DNA of 24,235 nucleotides from a virus. Of the stretch, positions 2,111 through 23,769 are shown piece after piece. The stretch is taken from positions 1 to 24,235 of IMG/VR virus record IMGVR_UViG_3300025697_000810; one strand, given 5' to 3'. The notes below the pieces were generated by a model, which searched no databases, had not been told where the DNA came from, and saw nothing but the letters and a program-made list of their open reading frames with translations. The position numbers were made by a program, and so were the translations under genes. The stretch's first letter is position 1; each line of letters starts with the position of its first letter.

Positions 2111-3430
2111 ATGACTATCAATGTCGGTAAAGTAGCAATGGTTCCAATCACTTCAATCGAAATAGGTGAACGTGCTAGACAGGAAATGGGTGACTTACAG
2201 GATCTGGAAAACTCTCTAAAGGAATCCGGTCTTATTCAACCTCTTGCCGTGAAACTTCTTGAAAATGGCAAGTATCTCCTTCTAGCTGGTGAACGAAGAT
2301 ACACAGTCCTTCTTACAAATCAAGTGCTTGAAGTCCCTGTTCGAATCTACGAAGGAGAACTATCAGAACTTGAAATGAAGGTGATTGAAAAGTCTGAAAA
2401 CTTCTATCGTAAGGATATGGAATACTATGAATACGACTCTTTAATCAACGAGATCCATACTCTGGAACAACAGATCAAAGGAACAAGTGCACCTGGTCCT
2501 GGACATGGAGGACATAAATTAAAGGACACCGCTGAGATGTTTGGCGTGACTGATGCTTCTGTATCCACTGCTATCAAACGAGCCGAAGCACGAGATGCAT
2601 TCCCTGAGCTATTCGAAAGCTGCAAGACCCAAAAGGATGCAACCAATGTAATCAAGAAGATGTCTGAGTCTATCATCAAAGAGACAATAGCTGAGAAATT
2701 AGATCGAGACAAACAAGGTGGGAGCACTTTAACCAAGCTCGCTAACTGCTATGTCTTAGGTGACTTCTTCGAGGGGATCAAGAAGATACCTGATGGTGTG
2801 ATGCACTTAGTTGAAATAGATCCTCCGTATGCTATTGATCTGAACAATGCTAAAATGAAAAGTGGTGAGTCTATTTATCAACAAGATCAATATAATGAAG
2901 TGCCTTCAGAAGCTTATCGAGAATTTCTATTTAATACATTTAAAGAATCTTATCGTGTGATGGCTGATCATTCGTGGCTGCTTTGCTGGTTTGCACCTCA
3001 GCCATGGTTTGAAGTTATGTTTGATATGATAATAGGTGCAGGTTTTAACACTACTAGAATGGTAGGAATTTGGACTAAGCCTTCAGGTCAATCTAAGCGC
3101 CCTGAAATGCACTTAGCAAATTCTTATGAAATGTTCTTCTATGCTTGGAAGGGTCGTCCTGCACTGAACAAGGCTGGTCGATCTAACAATTTCAACTATG
3201 CACCAGTCCCTCCACAAAACAAGACTCACCCTACTGAACGACCCCTTGATTTGATGAAAGACATTTACAATACCTTTGCATTCCCTGGCTCTAGAGTCTT
3301 AATTCCTTTTCTTGGTTCTGGAGTTGGATTAATAGCAGGCCATGAATTAGGGCTGAGTTCTATTGGATTTGAGCTTGGAAAGGGTTATAGAGATTCCTTT
3401 CTTGTTAAAGTTAATTCAATGGTTAATTAA
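2111..3430 (+). CDS. ParB-like domain / beta-class DNA methyltransferase fusion
   Basis: 439 aa; ATG 2111 follows TAGGAG. Residues ~8-95 form a ParB/Srx-type domain with GLIQPLAVKLL (40-50) and the signature AGERR (59-63). A helix-turn-helix-like stretch follows (~136-160, DTAEMFGVTDASVSTAIKRA). Residues ~205-435 are an amino-methyltransferase: motif IV DPPY (237-240), HPTERP (373-378) and motif I FLGSG (400-404). Motif IV before motif I is the beta-class order, which gives N6-adenine or N4-cytosine methylation, with target recognition probably in 245-370. No restriction enzyme is nearby, so it appears to be an orphan methylase that marks phage DNA. The ParB-like part probably gives DNA binding and need not act in partition. 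The catalytic motifs look intact. Confidence 0.88.
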   Translation: MTINVGKVAMVPITSIEIGERARQEMGDLQDLENSLKESGLIQPLAVKLLENGKYLLLAGERRYTVLLTNQVLEVPVRIYEGELSELEMKVIEKSENFYRKDMEYYEYDSLINEIHTLEQQIKGTSAPGPGHGGHKLKDTAEMFGVTDASVSTAIKRAEARDAFPELFESCKTQKDATNVIKKMSESIIKETIAEKLDRDKQGGSTLTKLANCYVLGDFFEGIKKIPDGVMHLVEIDPPYAIDLNNAKMKSGESIYQQDQYNEVPSEAYREFLFNTFKESYRVMADHSWLLCWFAPQPWFEVMFDMIIGAGFNTTRMVGIWTKPSGQSKRPEMHLANSYEMFFYAWKGRPALNKAGRSNNFNYAPVPPQNKTHPTERPLDLMKDIYNTFAFPGSRVLIPFLGSGVGLIAGHELGLSSIGFELGKGYRDSFLVKVNSMVN

Positions 3431-7334: not shown

Positions 7335-7359
7335 GATAATTAATTAATTTAATCATCTT
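7333..7359. terminator. AT-only hairpin between converging modules
   Basis: AAGAT (7333-7337) pairs with ATCTT (7355-7359), and ATTAA (7339-7343) pairs with TTAAT (7349-7353), with one A/C mismatch and a 5-nt loop. The hairpin contains both stop codons. It could end transcription from both sides, but with no GC pairs apart from two G-C pairs near the base it is weak. It may instead be part of the AT-rich element family. Confidence 0.35.
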
Positions 7360-10300
7360 TGCTAAACTGCTTCCTAACCTCTGACCTAAACTCTGGAGAG
7401 ATTATTCCTTTAGCTCTACTAACTATCCCATACTCTTTCCAGAGTTGTTTCCTTTCTTTATCATCTGCTGATTCAAGTAACTTAATCCATGTTCTAGCTT
7501 TTCCCTCTAAACTCTTATGACTAAAACTTAACCAGAAATTCCTATGTGGAAGTGCTTTAATTGCAGGGCTTTCTATAAATCTTAGTGAATCTTTAAAACT
7601 ATCATATACCTTTTTATCTTTAAAACTATACATATAATCAAGTACTCCTTTTCTTTCTCTAGCCCCATACCACGCATAGTCAGTAGCTAACATATTAAAC
7701 TTACCATTTCTAACTATCCTTTTAAGTTCTATATCATCATTAACCTCATCCATGATATCTCTTCTACCTTTACCACTTCTAGCTATCCCTATTATCCTAT
7801 TAAATCCTGGTGTTTCAGCTAATGTAATCAGCCAATGTTTATTTCTAGCTTCTTCAGGAACATCACTAAAGGCTTTTTCATAAAACTTCCCCATCATCCA
7901 GACGAACTCATTATTGTAAGGAATAACATTACTACCTGCACCACTTAATCTCTTTGGTGATAGTTTAGTAACCTTACCTATATCTTTAGCTACTTGTGGA
8001 ACATTCCTATCAAATTCTCCTTCATGCTGACTATCTGGAAAAGATAAAGTCTTTCCACCTAACTTAGTATACATTTGTCTATCTTTCCACCAACTATAAT
8101 TAGTAGTATAATCAACCCATAGTTGTATATGTGGATGCAGTGATAAATCAACTGGGCCTATTTTCTTAAGTGAATCAACTACTTCATGATAGTTAGGTTC
8201 TGTCTTAATCAACCCTTGATCAAACATATAAGTTTTAGTTAAATTCTCTGATAACTTATACATGAATGCAGCACCAGGATCCATTCTCAACTTGACATAA
8301 AAGCTAACATCATTACCATCTATATCTTTAGCCTTTATCCAATTAGGAAACAAAGGAAAAATTGCATTCTTCTCATTACCTTTAGTTGGGATATCCTTCA
8401 TATTACTCTCATATAAACTCCATGCAGCAGCTGTTATTCCAGCTGCTGTAGCACTTATTCTTGCAGTTCTAAAAGCAAAGTTTACTGGATTACTAGTAGC
8501 TTCTCTCCAAAAAGTTCTAGTGCCCAATACTCCAGCACTGAGAAAAATTATTCCACTTTGATCTAATGCTTTAACTAGCCAACCACCTTGATTATAGTCC
8601 ATTCTATCTCTAGCTGAATGAGCTGCTTCATACATGATGTCTTTATCTTTAAGAGCCTTTTCATATGTAAGACCTTTTTGTTTAGCTCTACTCCTTATTA
8701 TCCTATCTGCTGTAGCAATTCTAGGCCAGAGTTCCATGCTAAGTCCATGATATGAGAGAAGATCCATAGCTTTAGCAAAATCACCTGGTGGTTTGGTTCC
8801 CTTTAAATATCTACTCTGTCGTTGAGTAAGGAAGTTCATTACAAGACCATGCTTCATTAAATTCTGTGTTAGTGGTCCTCTACTATATACATCCCTAAAC
8901 ACCCTTCCCATATCAGTACCTAATTGAAGCTTATCAATACCTGGTATATACTGATTATATACCTTCTTATAATTTCCTTTTCTAGTCTTATAAAATGGGT
9001 AGGATAAGGTTGGGACAGTCTTTCCAGCCCCAGCTTCCCAAACTTTAGCTGTCCATAGAGAATGCATTACATCCATAGGTAACCCAATAAAAGTTGCCCA
9101 TATAGGACTACCACCAACTGCTAAGGTTCTTGTAATAGGTGCAAATGTAGCTCCTCTAATTATCATAGAAAGTCTAGGACTGATATCCTTACTTTGAGTA
9201 ACTAAGTATTTCACAGCATCTGGATGAAAGTAAAAATCACTGCGTTTGCCATCTTTTAGATATGGCATAGCGCTCCATCCCTTTACTTTCTTAACACTAA
9301 CAAACCCATTATCTGGATACTTCTCAGCCAATTCCTTCCACTTAAGTTTAGCTGCTTGATTTGCTATAGCTCCATATGCTCTACCAAATTGTTCATGTAA
9401 AACTATTCTTGCATCAGGTTCAATCATCTTAGTGCTTCCCCAACCTAGTGATTCTACACCTGAACTGGTAGACTTAATACTCTGACCTTTCATCTTCAAA
9501 TCATAGCTGAAATCATACAGACTTTCAACTGTCATAGATTTAAATTTCCTATAATCATGGGCCTTTAATAACACTCCTTCTTCAGGACTCTTTATTCCAG
9601 CATCAACAAGGTCATCTACTATTTTCCTAGACCATTCAAATAGTGCTTCACCAGATCTTACAACTTCCTTCATTTCTTCTGGCCCCATATCCCCAAATAG
9701 TTTCTTTAATTCAGGAACCTTCTTATTCAACATCTTCCATGCACCAGATGGAGTATCCTTAATCATCTCAACTATAGCACTTAATCCAGCTGATTGTTTA
9801 GGCCCATATCCAGGTTGATGTTTATAAGTTTTCTCACTTCTATAACTATAAATATCTTTAAATCTCCTAGCCAATACATAAGTATTTATAGCTTCAATCT
9901 GACTAGTACTCTTTCCTCTAAATATTTCCTTTACTGCCTGGTCATAGAGCATTGAACCATAGCCTTTACCAGCAGCAGCAGATCGTTGTCGATCTATTAT
10001 CTGCTGACTTTCTTTAGGGAAATGTTTCCTGACATACTTTAATAAGGTCTCAGACTGATCAAAGAAAGCTCTAACTGTATCAGCTTTTAATTGTTTAGCT
10101 GCATATTTAAAGTCTAAGTCTTTTTCTTTAGTAGATCTTCTAAACTCATCTACAAATTTACCTGCATCTTTAACAGTTTCTGTTAACTTCTTAGCACCTT
10201 TTCCTACTGCACCAGTGATGTCGTAGAGTTTGGTTCCTTTAGGTTTCTCAACCCCCCTAGCCCAAGCCGCTGCTTCGCTTATTGCAGTAATAAACGAATC

Positions 10301-12796
10301 AGCTTGTGCTCTATCACTATTAAAATACTGTAACATTGCTAATTGATTACTAGATTCTCTTGAATCAACTGCCAACTTACTTAAGTTTTCTCTTGCAATT
10401 CCTATATCAACATTCTCACCATCTAGCCAACTATTCACATCATTAAGAGACTTCGCTAAAATCAAATTAGGATCTTCTGCTATATGATCATTCTTTGCAT
10501 AGACATTTCTCATATCAGCTGTATACTTCTTATTCTTTTCTCTAAAAGGTGAGCTATCACCTTTGAGTTCAATAGGTTCAGGAGTTCCTGTCTGAAGATC
10601 TAATTCTGTAATATGTTCTTCAATAACAGGAACAGACTTAATATTTTCTATCTTACCTTGTTCAGGAGCTACTCTATAAATTCTAACTGTATTAGTTTCA
10701 GCAACAGTACCACTACCACCAGTATCAAATACATACACAGTAGTCCCAGGCTGTAAAGTACTTTTCTTTGCTCCAGCTACTTGACCTTCAGATAATATAG
10801 AATCATAACTACCTGCACGCCCACTATGTAAATTACCTTCAGTGTCTCTAAATGCAGTATATCTAAATACTGCATCATGCCAAGTATTTGGGATGCTAAC
10901 TTCTTCTCCAGGCATAACATTTTGTTCTATAACTTTAATATTCCTCTTTCTTTTTAATTTAATCCTTGATTGCTTAGGCATATCAAGTATATCAAATAGT
11001 TCTTGCATCTCAGGTTTAACAGTTCTGTAATCAACTTCTTGCTTAATTGTTTTAGCATCTTTGACTAATCTTAATTCTCTCTTCTTGATTGTTTTATCAA
11101 GTTGAATAATCTCTGCATCTCCATGAAGTTGGATAACCTCTGCAGATTTTTTAGGTTCAGGAGTTCCTGTTTGAAGGTCTAGTTCAGTGGTTGGTTCATC
11201 AAGTTCCTTAAATGATTTAATTGTCTTGGGTTCTTCCTTAACCTTAGCAATCTCTTCAACCTTCCCATAGGCGATCTTAGGTTCCTTCAACCCACTATCT
11301 GCAACTTTAGTTTTCTCAGCTAAAATTTCTTCTAATACTTTAGAATTATTCTGATAGAACTGTATATCTTCTGGAGTTACTAATTTCTCTCCAGCTATTA
11401 ATCTATCAGCAAACTTATTAATTTCTACTGGATTAGTCTTGATCGGTCTCCCTTTTAATCCACTACCCTTAATCGGCATTGATTTGATCCTAGCAATCTC
11501 TTCACCTTTCCTACCTAACTCTTCAGCAACTAGAGGACTAAGCCCCTTTTCAAACTTCGCTACCGTTTCCTTATATCTCAAGTCAGCTTGAACTTGTTCA
11601 GCTTCTAGCACCTTCTTCTGAGCCTCTCTCATCAACGCATCAGGGATTCCTTCAACTTCACCCATCTGTTGATCAAGAGCTTCCTTCTCCATCTTGTGCT
11701 TGGCTTCAATAATCTTCCTAGCCTCAGCAATCTTCGGTTTGAACTTTGCCTTGACACCTTTAGCAACCCCACCAGTCACTGCAAACTCTGCAAGCTCAGC
11801 ACCGAACTCTACAAGATAACCTAGTTCAGGGCTCAGCTTACTAACCTCTTCACCTATCTTCCTAGCAGGAGTCAAGTATATCTCAAATCCCTTACCTATC
11901 ATCTCTGCTGCTTGCTGTCCCTTTTCAGTAAAGGGCTGATACCCCAATCTAGCTGTTGCTTCCTCAGCTGCCTTAGCTATTTCAATCCCTTGATACAGAT
12001 GTGCAACACCAGTTGCTTTAGATGGGAGATACAACAACATCGAACTTGCAAGATTCATCGCTAACTCACCAGTAGCTACTACATTCATCCCTTGAGTCTT
12101 AGCTACATCAATCAAGGCATTCTTAGTGGCAGTATGCAGTGTCTCGTCATTCCACCCTATTTCCCCCCTCTGAAGATTAAACTTATTAGCCATTATGTTA
12201 CCAGTTAAATGACCACTATAAATATCCTTATCGAATACATTAGGTTTATCTTCTGATTCAACTGGGGCTACAGGCGCAGCTTGTTCAGGAGACAATAACT
12301 CTATCCCTGACTTAGGCTTACTATCTGATCTTGTCTGTGCTCCTCTAATCTTCTTCAAATAACCAACTGTTTCTTCTGGGAGATTATCCATACCGTACTT
12401 CTTAAGGTTTCCAGGTCCTGTATTATATGCAGCTATAGCTTCATCCCAGGAACCAAACCTATCCTTTAATTTCCTAAGGTAACTAGCTGAATAATCTATA
12501 GATGCCTTAGGGTCAGTTGGATCTACATTTGGATGATACTTAGGCATTATCTGAGCTATACCTACTGCACCAGCTGAAGATTTAGCTTCTGGATCATATC
12601 TACTTTCAGTATGAATCACATTAGCTAATAAATTATTAGGCAACTCATACTTCTTCTCAGCCTCACTAACATAGCTCATGTATGGCTTAGCCTTATCATA
12701 AGGTTCAAATGTATAACTTGATTCAGTTTGAGGAGTAAGTAGATCAACACCTGAAATCTTCTTATCTTTTCCTAATAATTTAAGACCCGATACCAT
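7349..12796 (-). CDS. Giant ejection protein with N-terminal lytic transglycosylase
   Basis: About 1815 aa. ATG 12796 has GGAG 10 nt upstream; ATG 12820 adds 8 residues with a weaker site. Residues ~40-150 are an SLT transglycosylase: catalytic Glu64 in HTES, GIAQIMP (79-85) and AYNTGPG (123-129). Short repeats flank it (SGVDLLTPQ and SGIELLSPEQ). A charged coiled-coil-like stretch (~300-420), a linker with duplicated TELDLQTGTPEP, and a long helical body follow. Hydrophobic segments such as IIFLSAGVLGT and ISATAAGITAAAW could insert into membranes. This is the plan of T7 gp16-like internal virion proteins, which cut peptidoglycan and carry DNA across the envelope. It is longer than T7 gp16 (about 1300 aa), partly from modules in the N-terminal third. 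It is last in the virion module. Confidence 0.85.
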   Translation of the reverse strand: MVSGLKLLGKDKKISGVDLLTPQTESSYTFEPYDKAKPYMSYVSEAEKKYELPNNLLANVIHTESRYDPEAKSSAGAVGIAQIMPKYHPNVDPTDPKASIDYSASYLRKLKDRFGSWDEAIAAYNTGPGNLKKYGMDNLPEETVGYLKKIRGAQTRSDSKPKSGIELLSPEQAAPVAPVESEDKPNVFDKDIYSGHLTGNIMANKFNLQRGEIGWNDETLHTATKNALIDVAKTQGMNVVATGELAMNLASSMLLYLPSKATGVAHLYQGIEIAKAAEEATARLGYQPFTEKGQQAAEMIGKGFEIYLTPARKIGEEVSKLSPELGYLVEFGAELAEFAVTGGVAKGVKAKFKPKIAEARKIIEAKHKMEKEALDQQMGEVEGIPDALMREAQKKVLEAEQVQADLRYKETVAKFEKGLSPLVAEELGRKGEEIARIKSMPIKGSGLKGRPIKTNPVEINKFADRLIAGEKLVTPEDIQFYQNNSKVLEEILAEKTKVADSGLKEPKIAYGKVEEIAKVKEEPKTIKSFKELDEPTTELDLQTGTPEPKKSAEVIQLHGDAEIIQLDKTIKKRELRLVKDAKTIKQEVDYRTVKPEMQELFDILDMPKQSRIKLKRKRNIKVIEQNVMPGEEVSIPNTWHDAVFRYTAFRDTEGNLHSGRAGSYDSILSEGQVAGAKKSTLQPGTTVYVFDTGGSGTVAETNTVRIYRVAPEQGKIENIKSVPVIEEHITELDLQTGTPEPIELKGDSSPFREKNKKYTADMRNVYAKNDHIAEDPNLILAKSLNDVNSWLDGENVDIGIARENLSKLAVDSRESSNQLAMLQYFNSDRAQADSFITAISEAAAWARGVEKPKGTKLYDITGAVGKGAKKLTETVKDAGKFVDEFRRSTKEKDLDFKYAAKQLKADTVRAFFDQSETLLKYVRKHFPKESQQIIDRQRSAAAGKGYGSMLYDQAVKEIFRGKSTSQIEAINTYVLARRFKDIYSYRSEKTYKHQPGYGPKQSAGLSAIVEMIKDTPSGAWKMLNKKVPELKKLFGDMGPEEMKEVVRSGEALFEWSRKIVDDLVDAGIKSPEEGVLLKAHDYRKFKSMTVESLYDFSYDLKMKGQSIKSTSSGVESLGWGSTKMIEPDARIVLHEQFGRAYGAIANQAAKLKWKELAEKYPDNGFVSVKKVKGWSAMPYLKDGKRSDFYFHPDAVKYLVTQSKDISPRLSMIIRGATFAPITRTLAVGGSPIWATFIGLPMDVMHSLWTAKVWEAGAGKTVPTLSYPFYKTRKGNYKKVYNQYIPGIDKLQLGTDMGRVFRDVYSRGPLTQNLMKHGLVMNFLTQRQSRYLKGTKPPGDFAKAMDLLSYHGLSMELWPRIATADRIIRSRAKQKGLTYEKALKDKDIMYEAAHSARDRMDYNQGGWLVKALDQSGIIFLSAGVLGTRTFWREATSNPVNFAFRTARISATAAGITAAAWSLYESNMKDIPTKGNEKNAIFPLFPNWIKAKDIDGNDVSFYVKLRMDPGAAFMYKLSENLTKTYMFDQGLIKTEPNYHEVVDSLKKIGPVDLSLHPHIQLWVDYTTNYSWWKDRQMYTKLGGKTLSFPDSQHEGEFDRNVPQVAKDIGKVTKLSPKRLSGAGSNVIPYNNEFVWMMGKFYEKAFSDVPEEARNKHWLITLAETPGFNRIIGIARSGKGRRDIMDEVNDDIELKRIVRNGKFNMLATDYAWYGARERKGVLDYMYSFKDKKVYDSFKDSLRFIESPAIKALPHRNFWLSFSHKSLEGKARTWIKLLESADDKERKQLWKEYGIVSRAKGIISPEFRSEVRKQFSKDD
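10574..11188 (-). repeat. Duplicated linker bracketing a module in the ejection gene
   Basis: Two ~36-nt copies at 11153-11188 and 10574-10609 share the core aggttcaggagttcctgt (top strand). Both encode TELDLQTGTPEP. They bracket about 190 residues that include a compact section around FRYTAFRDTEGNLHSG and TTVYVFDTGGSG. This suggests a module added or duplicated between linker repeats. Confidence 0.7.
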
Positions 12797-13880
12797 AGCT
12801 AACAGTCTCCGTTTTTCCATTAGGCCACTTAACAGTCCAAGACATCACACCATTTATATACTTAACATCTTCAATACTTCCACCAGTTGAGACTATTTTA
12901 TCTTCAATAAATTTTACCTTAATCTCACTAGTGGTTAGGTCTTTAACTCCTGGATCAAATCCAGCTTCAAACAATTTGTTCTGAACCTCTTCAGATTTCA
13001 TATACTTATCAACATCTGATGATAGTCCTTTAGGATTAGTAAAATATTTAATAGCACTAATATCAGCTTTTGCCTCAGTCCTAGCTGAAATCTCTCCTAT
13101 TGTAATAGCTCCAGCCTTAGCCATTTCAAGCATCCACTCATTGAAGGATCCATCATAGCCGTCTTTCTTAGCCCTATCAAAGTCCTTTTGATGAGTAGTT
13201 GAAGACTCCCTCTGGAACTCTTCAAAGGAACCTTCATAACCTTTTTTCTGAGCATACTCAAAGTTCTTAATTGCAGCTGTCCTCTCATCCTTGTTAGCAG
13301 ACTTATACCAATCTATATATTGTTTATTGGTTAGTTTGATATCAGTACCATTTATAGTAAGACCAACTGAAGGAGTAGCAGCAGCTGTTGTTGCTTTAGC
13401 TTGACCAATAAGAGCATCCTTATACTCCATATCTTTAGCACCAGTAATCCTACTCTGCTCAAACTGATCCTGACCAAACTTAAACTTCAGCGCATCAGAA
13501 ATCATCTCTGGACTTAGCCCTGCTAAATCAGAATCATCTAAATCATCAAGGAAACTCCCTGCTCTCTGTTGTTGAGATTGACCACTAGGACTTGCACTTG
13601 CGCTTGATCCACCTTGACTACTAGCTGTCCCTGAACCTTCTGCATCTGACTGTTGATCTGGTTCTAATTCTTCAGACATAGTAAGTTTATTATTCTTGTC
13701 AATTTTAGCATCAACCCCTTTTCTAAGCATAGCCTGTAGTAATTTCTTATGGTTCTGAGATGAGATATTCTGCTGAGTAATAGCATTGACATTCTGACCT
13801 ATTGAATTTCCTGCACCAGTGTCAGCTCCTGCAGCAGAGAGATATTGCAAGAGTAACTTATTATCCATGATATTTGCCAT
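12780..13880 (-). CDS. Probable internal virion protein, 366 aa
   Basis: AAGGAA precedes the ATG at 13880. The N-terminus is helical and Gln/Asn-rich (ITQQNISSQNHKKLLQAML). It is followed by a low-complexity Ser/Gly/Gln section (~80-108), an acidic patch (FLDDLDDSDLAGLSPEMI) and a helical region. Two copies of a motif of the form F-x2-A-x3-GY-x-GSF-x-E occur at 207-221 and 234-248. The end is beta-like (GVMSWTVKWPNGKTETV). No enzyme motif is seen. Position just ahead of the transglycosylase gene, which it overlaps by 17 nt (41 nt with the longer start), suggests a T7 gp14/gp15-like ejection partner. That is inference from synteny. Confidence 0.65.
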   Translation of the reverse strand: MANIMDNKLLLQYLSAAGADTGAGNSIGQNVNAITQQNISSQNHKKLLQAMLRKGVDAKIDKNNKLTMSEELEPDQQSDAEGSGTASSQGGSSASASPSGQSQQQRAGSFLDDLDDSDLAGLSPEMISDALKFKFGQDQFEQSRITGAKDMEYKDALIGQAKATTAAATPSVGLTINGTDIKLTNKQYIDWYKSANKDERTAAIKNFEYAQKKGYEGSFEEFQRESSTTHQKDFDRAKKDGYDGSFNEWMLEMAKAGAITIGEISARTEAKADISAIKYFTNPKGLSSDVDKYMKSEEVQNKLFEAGFDPGVKDLTTSEIKVKFIEDKIVSTGGSIEDVKYINGVMSWTVKWPNGKTETVSYGIGS

Positions 13881-13890
13881 TTTCAGTTCC

Positions 13891-14604
13891 TTAAATAAAT
13901 GGGTTTAGAACACTAAAATTAATATTAGGTCTTTTATCTGCTACAGACATCTGACTTAATTTAGATTTTTTACCGCTTAATAAATTTGATAGTATGTCTT
14001 GAGTAGAACTTGTTGAGCTTGTGCTTCTACCATAAGAACCAGTAAATAAAGAATTTCTATCACCAGACATTTGGCCTAACAATGTTTGATTAATAGTTTG
14101 ATTATCTAATTCTCCTCCTTCACCACTACCAAATTGTGTTGAATTATCTGATGGACTAAGGCTCCTCCCAGCATTATTTATAGCGTTCTCTAATGTGGTA
14201 TCATCTACATTTGGATACTGCTCTTGCATCTGAGCCAATGTAGAATCTTTCACACTTTTATAATCCTTAATACTTTTAATAGTAGCAAGTCCACCAGCAA
14301 GAAGACCTTTTGCAGCTGTTGTAAGTATAGTCGATACAGAATTCTTTAAAATATTTTGATTTCTTAAATGCCTAGCTTTCTCTGCGGCTTCAACAAATGC
14401 TTTATTAGGATCGATATTAGTTTGTCCATGAGTAGTAAATCCATAGTGAGCATCAGAACCACCAGAGACCCCTTTAAATCCAACACTAGTCTGCCCATGA
14501 GTTGTTCCGCCATAATGACTATCAGACCCACCGCTAGCACCGCTAGCACCGCCAACCCCTGATTGTCCACTTCCTGTATTCCCTGCACTATCTGGTCCTG
14601 GCAT
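13891..14604 (-). CDS. Gly/Ser-rich virion protein with internal repeat, 237 aa
   Basis: The frame can open at a TTG (14619), but ATG 14604 sits behind AAAGGTGGGG and is chosen. Residues ~24-42 and ~47-64 are a tandem repeat, SGGSD[SA]HYG[GF]TTHGQT, in a Gly/Ser-rich N-terminus. A basic helix (AEKARHLRNQNILKN) and a small hydrophobic stretch (ILTTAAKGLLAGGLATI) follow. The C-terminal half is Ser/Asn/Gln-rich and low in structure. It lies among the ejection proteins and is probably an internal or scaffold-like virion component. The repeat has a His-Tyr/His-Gly pattern of unknown use. No homologous family is recognised. Confidence 0.6.
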   Translation of the reverse strand: MPGPDSAGNTGSGQSGVGGASGASGGSDSHYGGTTHGQTSVGFKGVSGGSDAHYGFTTHGQTNIDPNKAFVEAAEKARHLRNQNILKNSVSTILTTAAKGLLAGGLATIKSIKDYKSVKDSTLAQMQEQYPNVDDTTLENAINNAGRSLSPSDNSTQFGSGEGGELDNQTINQTLLGQMSGDRNSLFTGSYGRSTSSTSSTQDILSNLLSGKKSKLSQMSVADKRPNINFSVLNPFI

Positions 14605-14621
14605 AGCCCCACCTTTCAAAT

Positions 14622-22905: not shown

Positions 22906-23769
22906 TTAATCAAGTCCTAATGCCTTATCCATCTCATCCATGTCGGACTGAAGTTGGCTGACATCAGGTTTAGTTGGTTGTCGTTTGCCGCTTTTCTTAC
23001 GTGGTAGCTTAGGCGGCTTAGTTGAGTCAATAGCTTCCTTACGAAGAGATAGTCTAGTTCGTACTTCCTTAGCTACGTCTGGAAGAAGTTCATTGTAAGA
23101 CTTTCCAGGGTCTTTACTAATGAACTCTTCAAAGACTGTAGCCACGGCAGCCTTCCATGGGACTAGATCTTTGTTTTCTGCATAAAAGTCTTCATTTACC
23201 TTTTTAAGTGTAGCTGTTAAAGCTATGTTATTTTTGACTATGTCAGGGATAGCTTTGACAACTGATTCATTTCCAAGCTTTACGTCACCCCTTGCATCAG
23301 TTCTAGCTTTTGCATAAATTTTGTTAAGCAAGGCATTGAAGAGCTTAGGATCTCTGGTTAGTTCATCAAGGTCAGTTTCTCCTAAGAAGTCTTCCTCAGG
23401 GATAGGTTCTTCAGCAGGAGGTTCAGGGTCTGGCTCAGGTTCAGGTTCTGGTTCTGGTTCTGGTTCAGCTTTAGGTGTTTCTAATGCAACGATCTTCTCT
23501 CTGAGTTCTCTGAGTTCGATGTCTTTAGGATCTTCCACAGGCGGTGGATCAACCACTGGAGGATCTACAGGAGGATCATCATCATCAGCTGGAGGATCAT
23601 CATCAGTCGGAGGGTCATCTGAAGGCGGATCATCAGGTGGATCATCGTCTGCAGGTGGGTCAGTAGGTGGATCGTCTACAGGCGGATCATCCTTAGGCTC
23701 TTCAAACCCTGGTTCTGGATCTTCTAATGCTTTAGTCATTTCATCCATTTCATCGTCAAGTACACTCAT
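22906..23769 (-). CDS. Capsid assembly scaffold candidate, Asp/Pro-rich, 287 aa
   Basis: GGGAGG precedes the ATG. Residues ~20-80 are Asp/Pro repeats (DDPP, DPP, DDDPP), and 102-117 are Glu-Pro repeats. Residues ~82-97 could be a short coiled coil (DIELRELREKIVALE). The C-terminal half is helical, and a basic patch (PKLPRKKSGKRQPTKP) precedes the end. The same acidic motif caps both ends: DEMDEMTKAL near residues 6-15 and DMDEMDKALGL near 276-286. An acidic, helical, low-complexity protein just ahead of the capsid gene is typical of scaffolds, whose C-terminal basic or helical end docks to the coat. The duplicated terminal motif is unusual. No protease domain is seen. Confidence 0.7.
   Translation of the reverse strand: MSVLDDEMDEMTKALEDPEPGFEEPKDDPPVDDPPTDPPADDDPPDDPPSDDPPTDDDPPADDDDPPVDPPVVDPPPVEDPKDIELRELREKIVALETPKAEPEPEPEPEPEPDPEPPAEEPIPEEDFLGETDLDELTRDPKLFNALLNKIYAKARTDARGDVKLGNESVVKAIPDIVKNNIALTATLKKVNEDFYAENKDLVPWKAAVATVFEEFISKDPGKSYNELLPDVAKEVRTRLSLRKEAIDSTKPPKLPRKKSGKRQPTKPDVSQLQSDMDEMDKALGLD
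23401..23720. repeat. Low-complexity repeats in the scaffold gene
   Basis: A ggttct/ggttca hexamer array (about 23423-23466) encodes Glu-Pro repeats. An array of ggatcatc/ggagg units (about 23540-23695) encodes Asp/Pro repeats. Such arrays can change length by slippage. Confidence 0.75.

Follow-up and report, generated by a model that had tools for sequence, protein, structure and literature searches.

The giant ejection-type protein encoded in the window (the whole 24,235-nucleotide stretch of viral DNA analysed here) contains three copies of a short SG..LL peptide towards its N-terminus, and comparison with related phages leads us to consider it rather probable that these copies form a multivalent docking tag, and that a second repeated peptide in the same chain, TELDLQTGTPEP, is a boundary element that was duplicated when a module was gained. 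Giants of this family usually carry two or three copies of one such peptide, in an array whose sequence is phage-specific, whose presence is independent of the enzymatic modules and which is conserved at the level of the peptide.

The giant and all of its features given below lie on the complementary (-) strand; the longest open reading frame spans 7349..12820 and comprises 1823 residues, and residue numbers refer to this frame. The initial annotation had placed the gene at 7349-12796; although the longest frame reaches further, position 12796 coincides with an internal ATG (residue 9), which is likely to be the true translation start because relatives begin M[VIP]SGLDLL. The first motif copy, SGLKLL (12773..12790; residues 11-16), occupies residues 3-8 counted from this start, and the second, SGVDLLTPQ (12728..12754; residues 23-31), and third, SGIELLSPE (12284..12310; residues 171-179), flank an SLT transglycosylase domain (12392..12673; residues 50-143; Pfam PF01464, E 7e-22), as had been described. 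Further along the chain are an extra copy of TELDLQTGTPEP (11153..11188; residues 545-556), an orphan α/β module (10658..11050; about residues 591-721), a second copy of TELDLQTGTPEP at the position that the element occupies in the family (10574..10609; residues 738-749), a conserved helical domain directly after the element (10253..10531; about residues 764-856; alignment of 26), and the conserved C-terminal core (7352..10228; residues 865-1823). Both repeated pairs reported at the outset are, therefore, located where they had been placed. From residue 754 on, the giant shares 26-31% identity with seven relatives, and it matches phrog_342 (internal virion protein with endolysin domain) with E 3.5e-19. 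Its gene is the last of the structural run, after those of smaller ejection proteins, in the gene order of both the window and its relatives, and the protein is probably ejected into the bacterial host. A 304-aa gene of the window gave a weak match to P22_gp7 (E 0.005, below the cut-off).

A scan of viral contigs with the whole giant found no relatives, and an exact DNA scan for the second linker gave no match; a search with the major capsid protein reached 35 viral contigs, the open frames of which included giants of 1389 to 2502 codons, and a core alignment of eight giants then led to 30 loci. Among named phages, Desulfofustis phage LS06-2018-MD01 comes nearest (E 7e-15 for the giant; capsid protein 49.5% identical). 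The family is strongly mosaic: among the 36 proteins searched, four of which were without their N-terminus, the SLT domain is present in 5, the 190-residue module between the second pair in 3, and the region that follows the boundary element in 28. The suggestion that modules are gained and lost is borne out by these counts; it was not the case that every homologue has the two modules next to linkers of unrelated sequence. LPD23 scored above the cut-off in 6 of 13 relatives scanned, and the giant of the window itself had no Pfam LPD match.

The SG[VI][DE]LL pair had initially been regarded as a bracket for the SLT domain, with the prediction that relatives devoid of this domain would keep a single linker. 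Neither idea survives the comparison, as the window has a further copy at the N-terminus (SGLKLL, absent from the initial annotation; 19.5 against a 95% shuffle threshold of 19.0), and the relatives have two or three motif copies, mostly with no SLT domain. Taken by itself, the first pair of the window gives a self-match score of 40 over the first 250 residues, which is equalled in 3 of 100 shuffles; the internal repeat within its first 75 residues is non-significant (p 0.28) because the third copy lies beyond the SLT domain. The peptides repeated in relatives include SGLDLL-type, SLTDQ[LM]F-type (SLTDQMF occurring three times), SLLDI[ED]LV, F[ED].L[LV]-type, LILPFE, IDFES and PA..FLS sequences, among others. 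In the cultured Microcystis phage Mel-JY34, LDD[IV]D.MLQ is present in triplicate, and Vibrio phage VS-ABTNL-3 has a set of three that is weaker; PaMx41 gp24 and Tiera have no motif array.

Across the family, 25 of 36 giants have an internal repeat in the first 75 residues that scores better than composition-preserving shuffles (p<0.05), with p about 0.01 or less in 18 of them and the window among the 11 that are non-significant; the combined excess is substantial (Fisher p 6e-28). The test left aside L066, L069 and L072 (5' end missing), L084 (a broken near-copy of L083), and L063 and L064, which are same-position giants of more distant phages with no match to that of the window. Applied to control regions, it was positive for 3 of 26 linkers before the core and for residues 101-175 in 3 of 36 giants; the four neighbouring virion genes gave 3/26, 1/28, 6/27 and 1/27, and none of nine proteins from other phages (P1 DarB, DdrB and DarA, T7 gp14-16 and N4 gp50-52) had significant N-terminal repeats. 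In a seeded scan of 33 giants, 16 had three copies above the shuffle threshold and 14 had two; Mel-JY34 had four, L091 had one, and L088 had three, the third of which is doubtful; the seeds match by construction and, therefore, only the extra copies count as tests. In giants that have no intervening domain, the copies lie 10-17 residues apart at the N-terminus, and in L065, L077 and L093 the third copy is about 450-530 residues in. A search of the other gene-like frames in the regions of 19 phages found the motif in none except a reverse-strand frame of 105 codons in L065.

The type of peptide is not tied to the domain beside it. Motif classes are scattered over the tree of the giant core, and the SLT domain occurs irrespective of motif class: L089, which belongs to the SLTDQMF class, shares its SLT domain with the window (phmmer E 1.7e-46), and L074 matches the window just after the SLT domain, yet carries SLTDQ-type motifs and no SLT domain.

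The codons used by the copies bear on how they are kept alike. Over 59 copy pairs from 29 giants, codons differ at 154 of 323 identical residues (48%), as against 56% expected if they were independent. After a recent duplication or gene conversion the codons, too, would still match, which disfavours duplication of the DNA; with the same residues encoded by nearly independent codons, it is selection on the peptide that holds the copies within one phage to one sequence, while related phages use another. SGVDLLTPQ and SGIELLSPE share 18 of 27 bases, and the codon identity between the copies is too low for the first pair to be recombination sites in DNA, as had been proposed.

The simplest cause of such selection would be a single partner site, variable from phage to phage, to which every copy binds, and of the earlier suggestions for the linkers, that of an assembly site comes closest to a docking tag. 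We envisage that about three copies of one short peptide, displayed in an unstructured leader, would all engage equivalent sites on a single partner, for which a ring-shaped component of the virion (the portal or an inner-core protein, for example) is the likeliest candidate; the giant would thereby be tethered at several points during assembly, held in the head and released on ejection. The SLT domain would be a module that merely sits between copies 2 and 3. A more elaborate version, to which we give little credence, would have the twelve portal subunits filled by four giant chains, every one of which contributes three portal-binding peptides, such that the portal allele sets both the copy number and the sequence of the tag, and giants are traded only with matching tags.

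The loading of very large internal proteins into phage heads is, for the most part, still to be explained. If true, a repeated, phage-specific peptide kept by selection would provide a docking code that can be read from sequence and tested by swaps or deletions of a few residues, and it could offer a means of packing phage heads with chosen cargo. The proposed tag would belong to a known kind, the N-terminal targeting peptides of internal phage proteins; its multiplication and phage-specific sequence would be new, and we found no description of repeated N-terminal motifs in ejection proteins in the open-access literature. Capsid-targeting signals are short N-terminal peptides, and copy 1 lies at a comparable place in the window and its relatives, the giant being presumably internal to the virion. 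One close parallel is DarB of phage P1, a 250-kDa head protein of which the first 30 residues suffice to bring a reporter into the head (PMC9024508); a short N-terminal peptide on a very large protein is common to both, but DarB has a single signal (N-terminal repeat test p 0.81). The capsid targeting sequence of the T4 internal proteins is likewise a short conserved tag on otherwise variable proteins, although T4 uses one tag on many proteins per phage (PMC3012670), whereas here several copies reside on one protein. In N4, about 16 N-terminal residues of the ejection protein gp52 fill 12 sites of the head-tail adaptor and are gone after ejection (PMC12633501, preprint); unlike the window's giant, gp52 is small, supplies one peptide per chain and has no repeat that we could find. 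T7 gp16, four copies of which are visible in the core stack, is also a giant ejection protein in which an N-terminal SLT domain is followed by an extended 'molecular tape' that binds gp15 (PMC8954989), but its SLT domain is at the very N-terminus and no repeated motif was found in it. Finally, phage polyvalent proteins are giant, multidomain and presumably injected, with domains that are swapped (PMC5512222). Whereas several unlike catalytic domains in one chain would be a mark of such proteins, the giant of the window has an SLT domain and the orphan module, to which no fold is assigned. It differs from them in its lack of a Pfam LPD match, and the passages of PMC5512222 on these proteins that were consulted do not mention a repeated docking motif.

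The portal emerged as a lead, rather than a result, in the search for a docking partner. For the three motif classes, which were drawn by eye, the portal tree of the initial set required three changes of class (1/200 shuffles), and after addition of further phages it required four, against a shuffle mean of 7.4, with 2 of 1000 shuffles as good; these tests covered phages with a portal on the contig, a set that does not include the window. The portal alone separated the classes better than shuffles among the seven trees compared in the enlarged test. All six portals of class A and all five of class B fall on opposite sides of a supported branch, and 8 of 641 portal columns separate the two classes, the most of 462 splits, with several of them near residues 282-341. 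A distance-based test of the portal over 22 phages gave r 0.056 (p 0.29), and, given this lack of confirmation and the comparison of seven trees, we do not claim the portal as the partner. The same test over 15 phages gave small signals for ej366 and the scaffold (p 0.03, uncorrected). The giant core, ej366, p304, p463, p159, the scaffold and MCP were rejected as candidates, as their trees do not track motif class, and tags shared between the giant and either the scaffold ends or four neighbouring genes were not in excess (permutation p 0.29-0.87).

The second pair has a different character. It had been noted as a repeat at the DNA level, and TELDLQTGTPEP is indeed encoded at exactly 11153-11188 and 10574-10609, with 32 of 36 bases identical and all four differences synonymous (chance 0.4-1.7%). 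This pair is also the best self-match of the giant (residues 520-556 against 713-749; score 84, compared with at most 45 in six shuffles). A family element, EPIT[DE]LDxQTGTxEPxEL...SPFRE, stands before the conserved helical domain, for which AlphaFold2 predicts a confident fold (mean pLDDT 86; helices >90, core leader 56-70). The prediction that a single linker would remain where the module is missing was upheld for this pair, as each of the 25 relatives of the profile has a single copy of the element and the window alone has two. Moreover, the left copy in the window retains the left flank of the family (EP..TELD) and the right copy the right flank (IELKGDSSPFRE), which is the arrangement that insertion of the module together with a second copy of the boundary element would produce. 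From this one case, we infer that the TELDLQTGTPEP pair reflects such an insertion, after which both copies would have been kept by selection on the peptide; it would be a clean example of domain gain at a boundary element in a giant mosaic protein. The module is common only to the window, L058 and L079, and the latter two carry it in the same slot (46-55% identical) with no double element; duplication is, therefore, not needed for having the module. Structure prediction between the second pair gave a mean pLDDT of 62, with an ordered domain of about 130 residues (model residues about 42-172) and flanks below 50. Its sequence had no match among phage records or GTDB genomes, and the best match among PDB sequences had E 1.8; against Pfam, the window member had no match and one of the three members gave a weak Cupin_8 hit (E 0.085). 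Foldseek found no match to the model below 1e-3, and the best VIA-align Z was 5.5. A second insertion slot is delineated by a loose LYSGIPID-type boundary motif, found two or three times in 7 of the 36 proteins. L074 and L083 have metallopeptidase-like motifs (HELVH and HELLH, respectively) just before the boundary element, in the slot taken up by the orphan module in the window.

Other explanations of the repeated peptides account for parts of these observations. Homologous recombination between short DNA repeats, with the linkers serving as sites at which modules are swapped, would explain the near-identity in DNA of the second pair and its placement around a module that 33 of the 36 proteins searched do not have, and in L075 another stretch is bracketed by an EPDRLKIERP pair (11/13 residues, 110 residues apart). 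As a general account it is nevertheless unlikely, because the first pair has diverged in DNA, the motif copies of the family are near codon saturation, and L058 and L079 have the module but not the bracket. Cleavage sites for a virion or host protease, by which the SLT domain or the leader would be freed, would suit peptides that lie on both sides of the SLT domain, and giants of the P1 DdrB and N4 kind have been discussed as possibly self-processed (in part of PMC5512222). We regard this as improbable, as the copies are closely spaced in giants that have no domain between them, the peptide changes completely between relatives, and no protease was recognized among the seven window proteins scanned.

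Alternatively, the array may act after ejection, binding a host protein so as to hold the giant at the membrane or capture a host enzyme, in which case its sequence would follow the host and not the virion. The variation of motif class among related phages, with no tracking of the giant core, MCP or the neighbouring genes, is in keeping with this; however, the class fits the portal tree better than shuffles, and the array precedes the SLT domain, which is expected to act early, in the envelope, and we therefore think a host target doubtful. Chance or low-complexity similarity, finally, could have been entertained had the window stood alone, as its first pair is only moderately significant, but at the level of the family it is already refuted by the excess of repeats over shuffles, which is absent in the controls.

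Several features of other genes, in the window and in relatives, are recorded here as observations in their own right. The scaffold-like protein encoded before the capsid gene (22906-23769, (-) strand) bears a similar short motif of helix-like character, E[LIM]..M[ND]K.L, at its N- and C-terminus alike; this holds for the window and for the majority of 18 relatives, chosen because they have the C-terminal copy. A 242-aa gene (13891-14619, (-) strand), situated between the genes of 304 and 366 aa, contains a repeated SGGSD[SA]HYG.TTHGQT stretch; none of the 12 relatives compared has an extra gene at this position. The portals L117 (of L075) and L127 (of L077) have about 1000 codons, rather than 650, with some 350 extra residues inside that are possibly an intein. 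The capsid genes of some relatives (G028, G027 and G026) are split or contain a stop, and two have an extra frame of 226-254 aa (L105 and L121) beside the start of the gene, which suggests introns with homing endonucleases. The protein encoded at 2111-3430 (+) seems to consist of a ParB-like N-terminus joined to what we take, from its DPPY motif, to be a DNA methylase, and a ParB-like gene occupies the corresponding position in the Desulfofustis phage.
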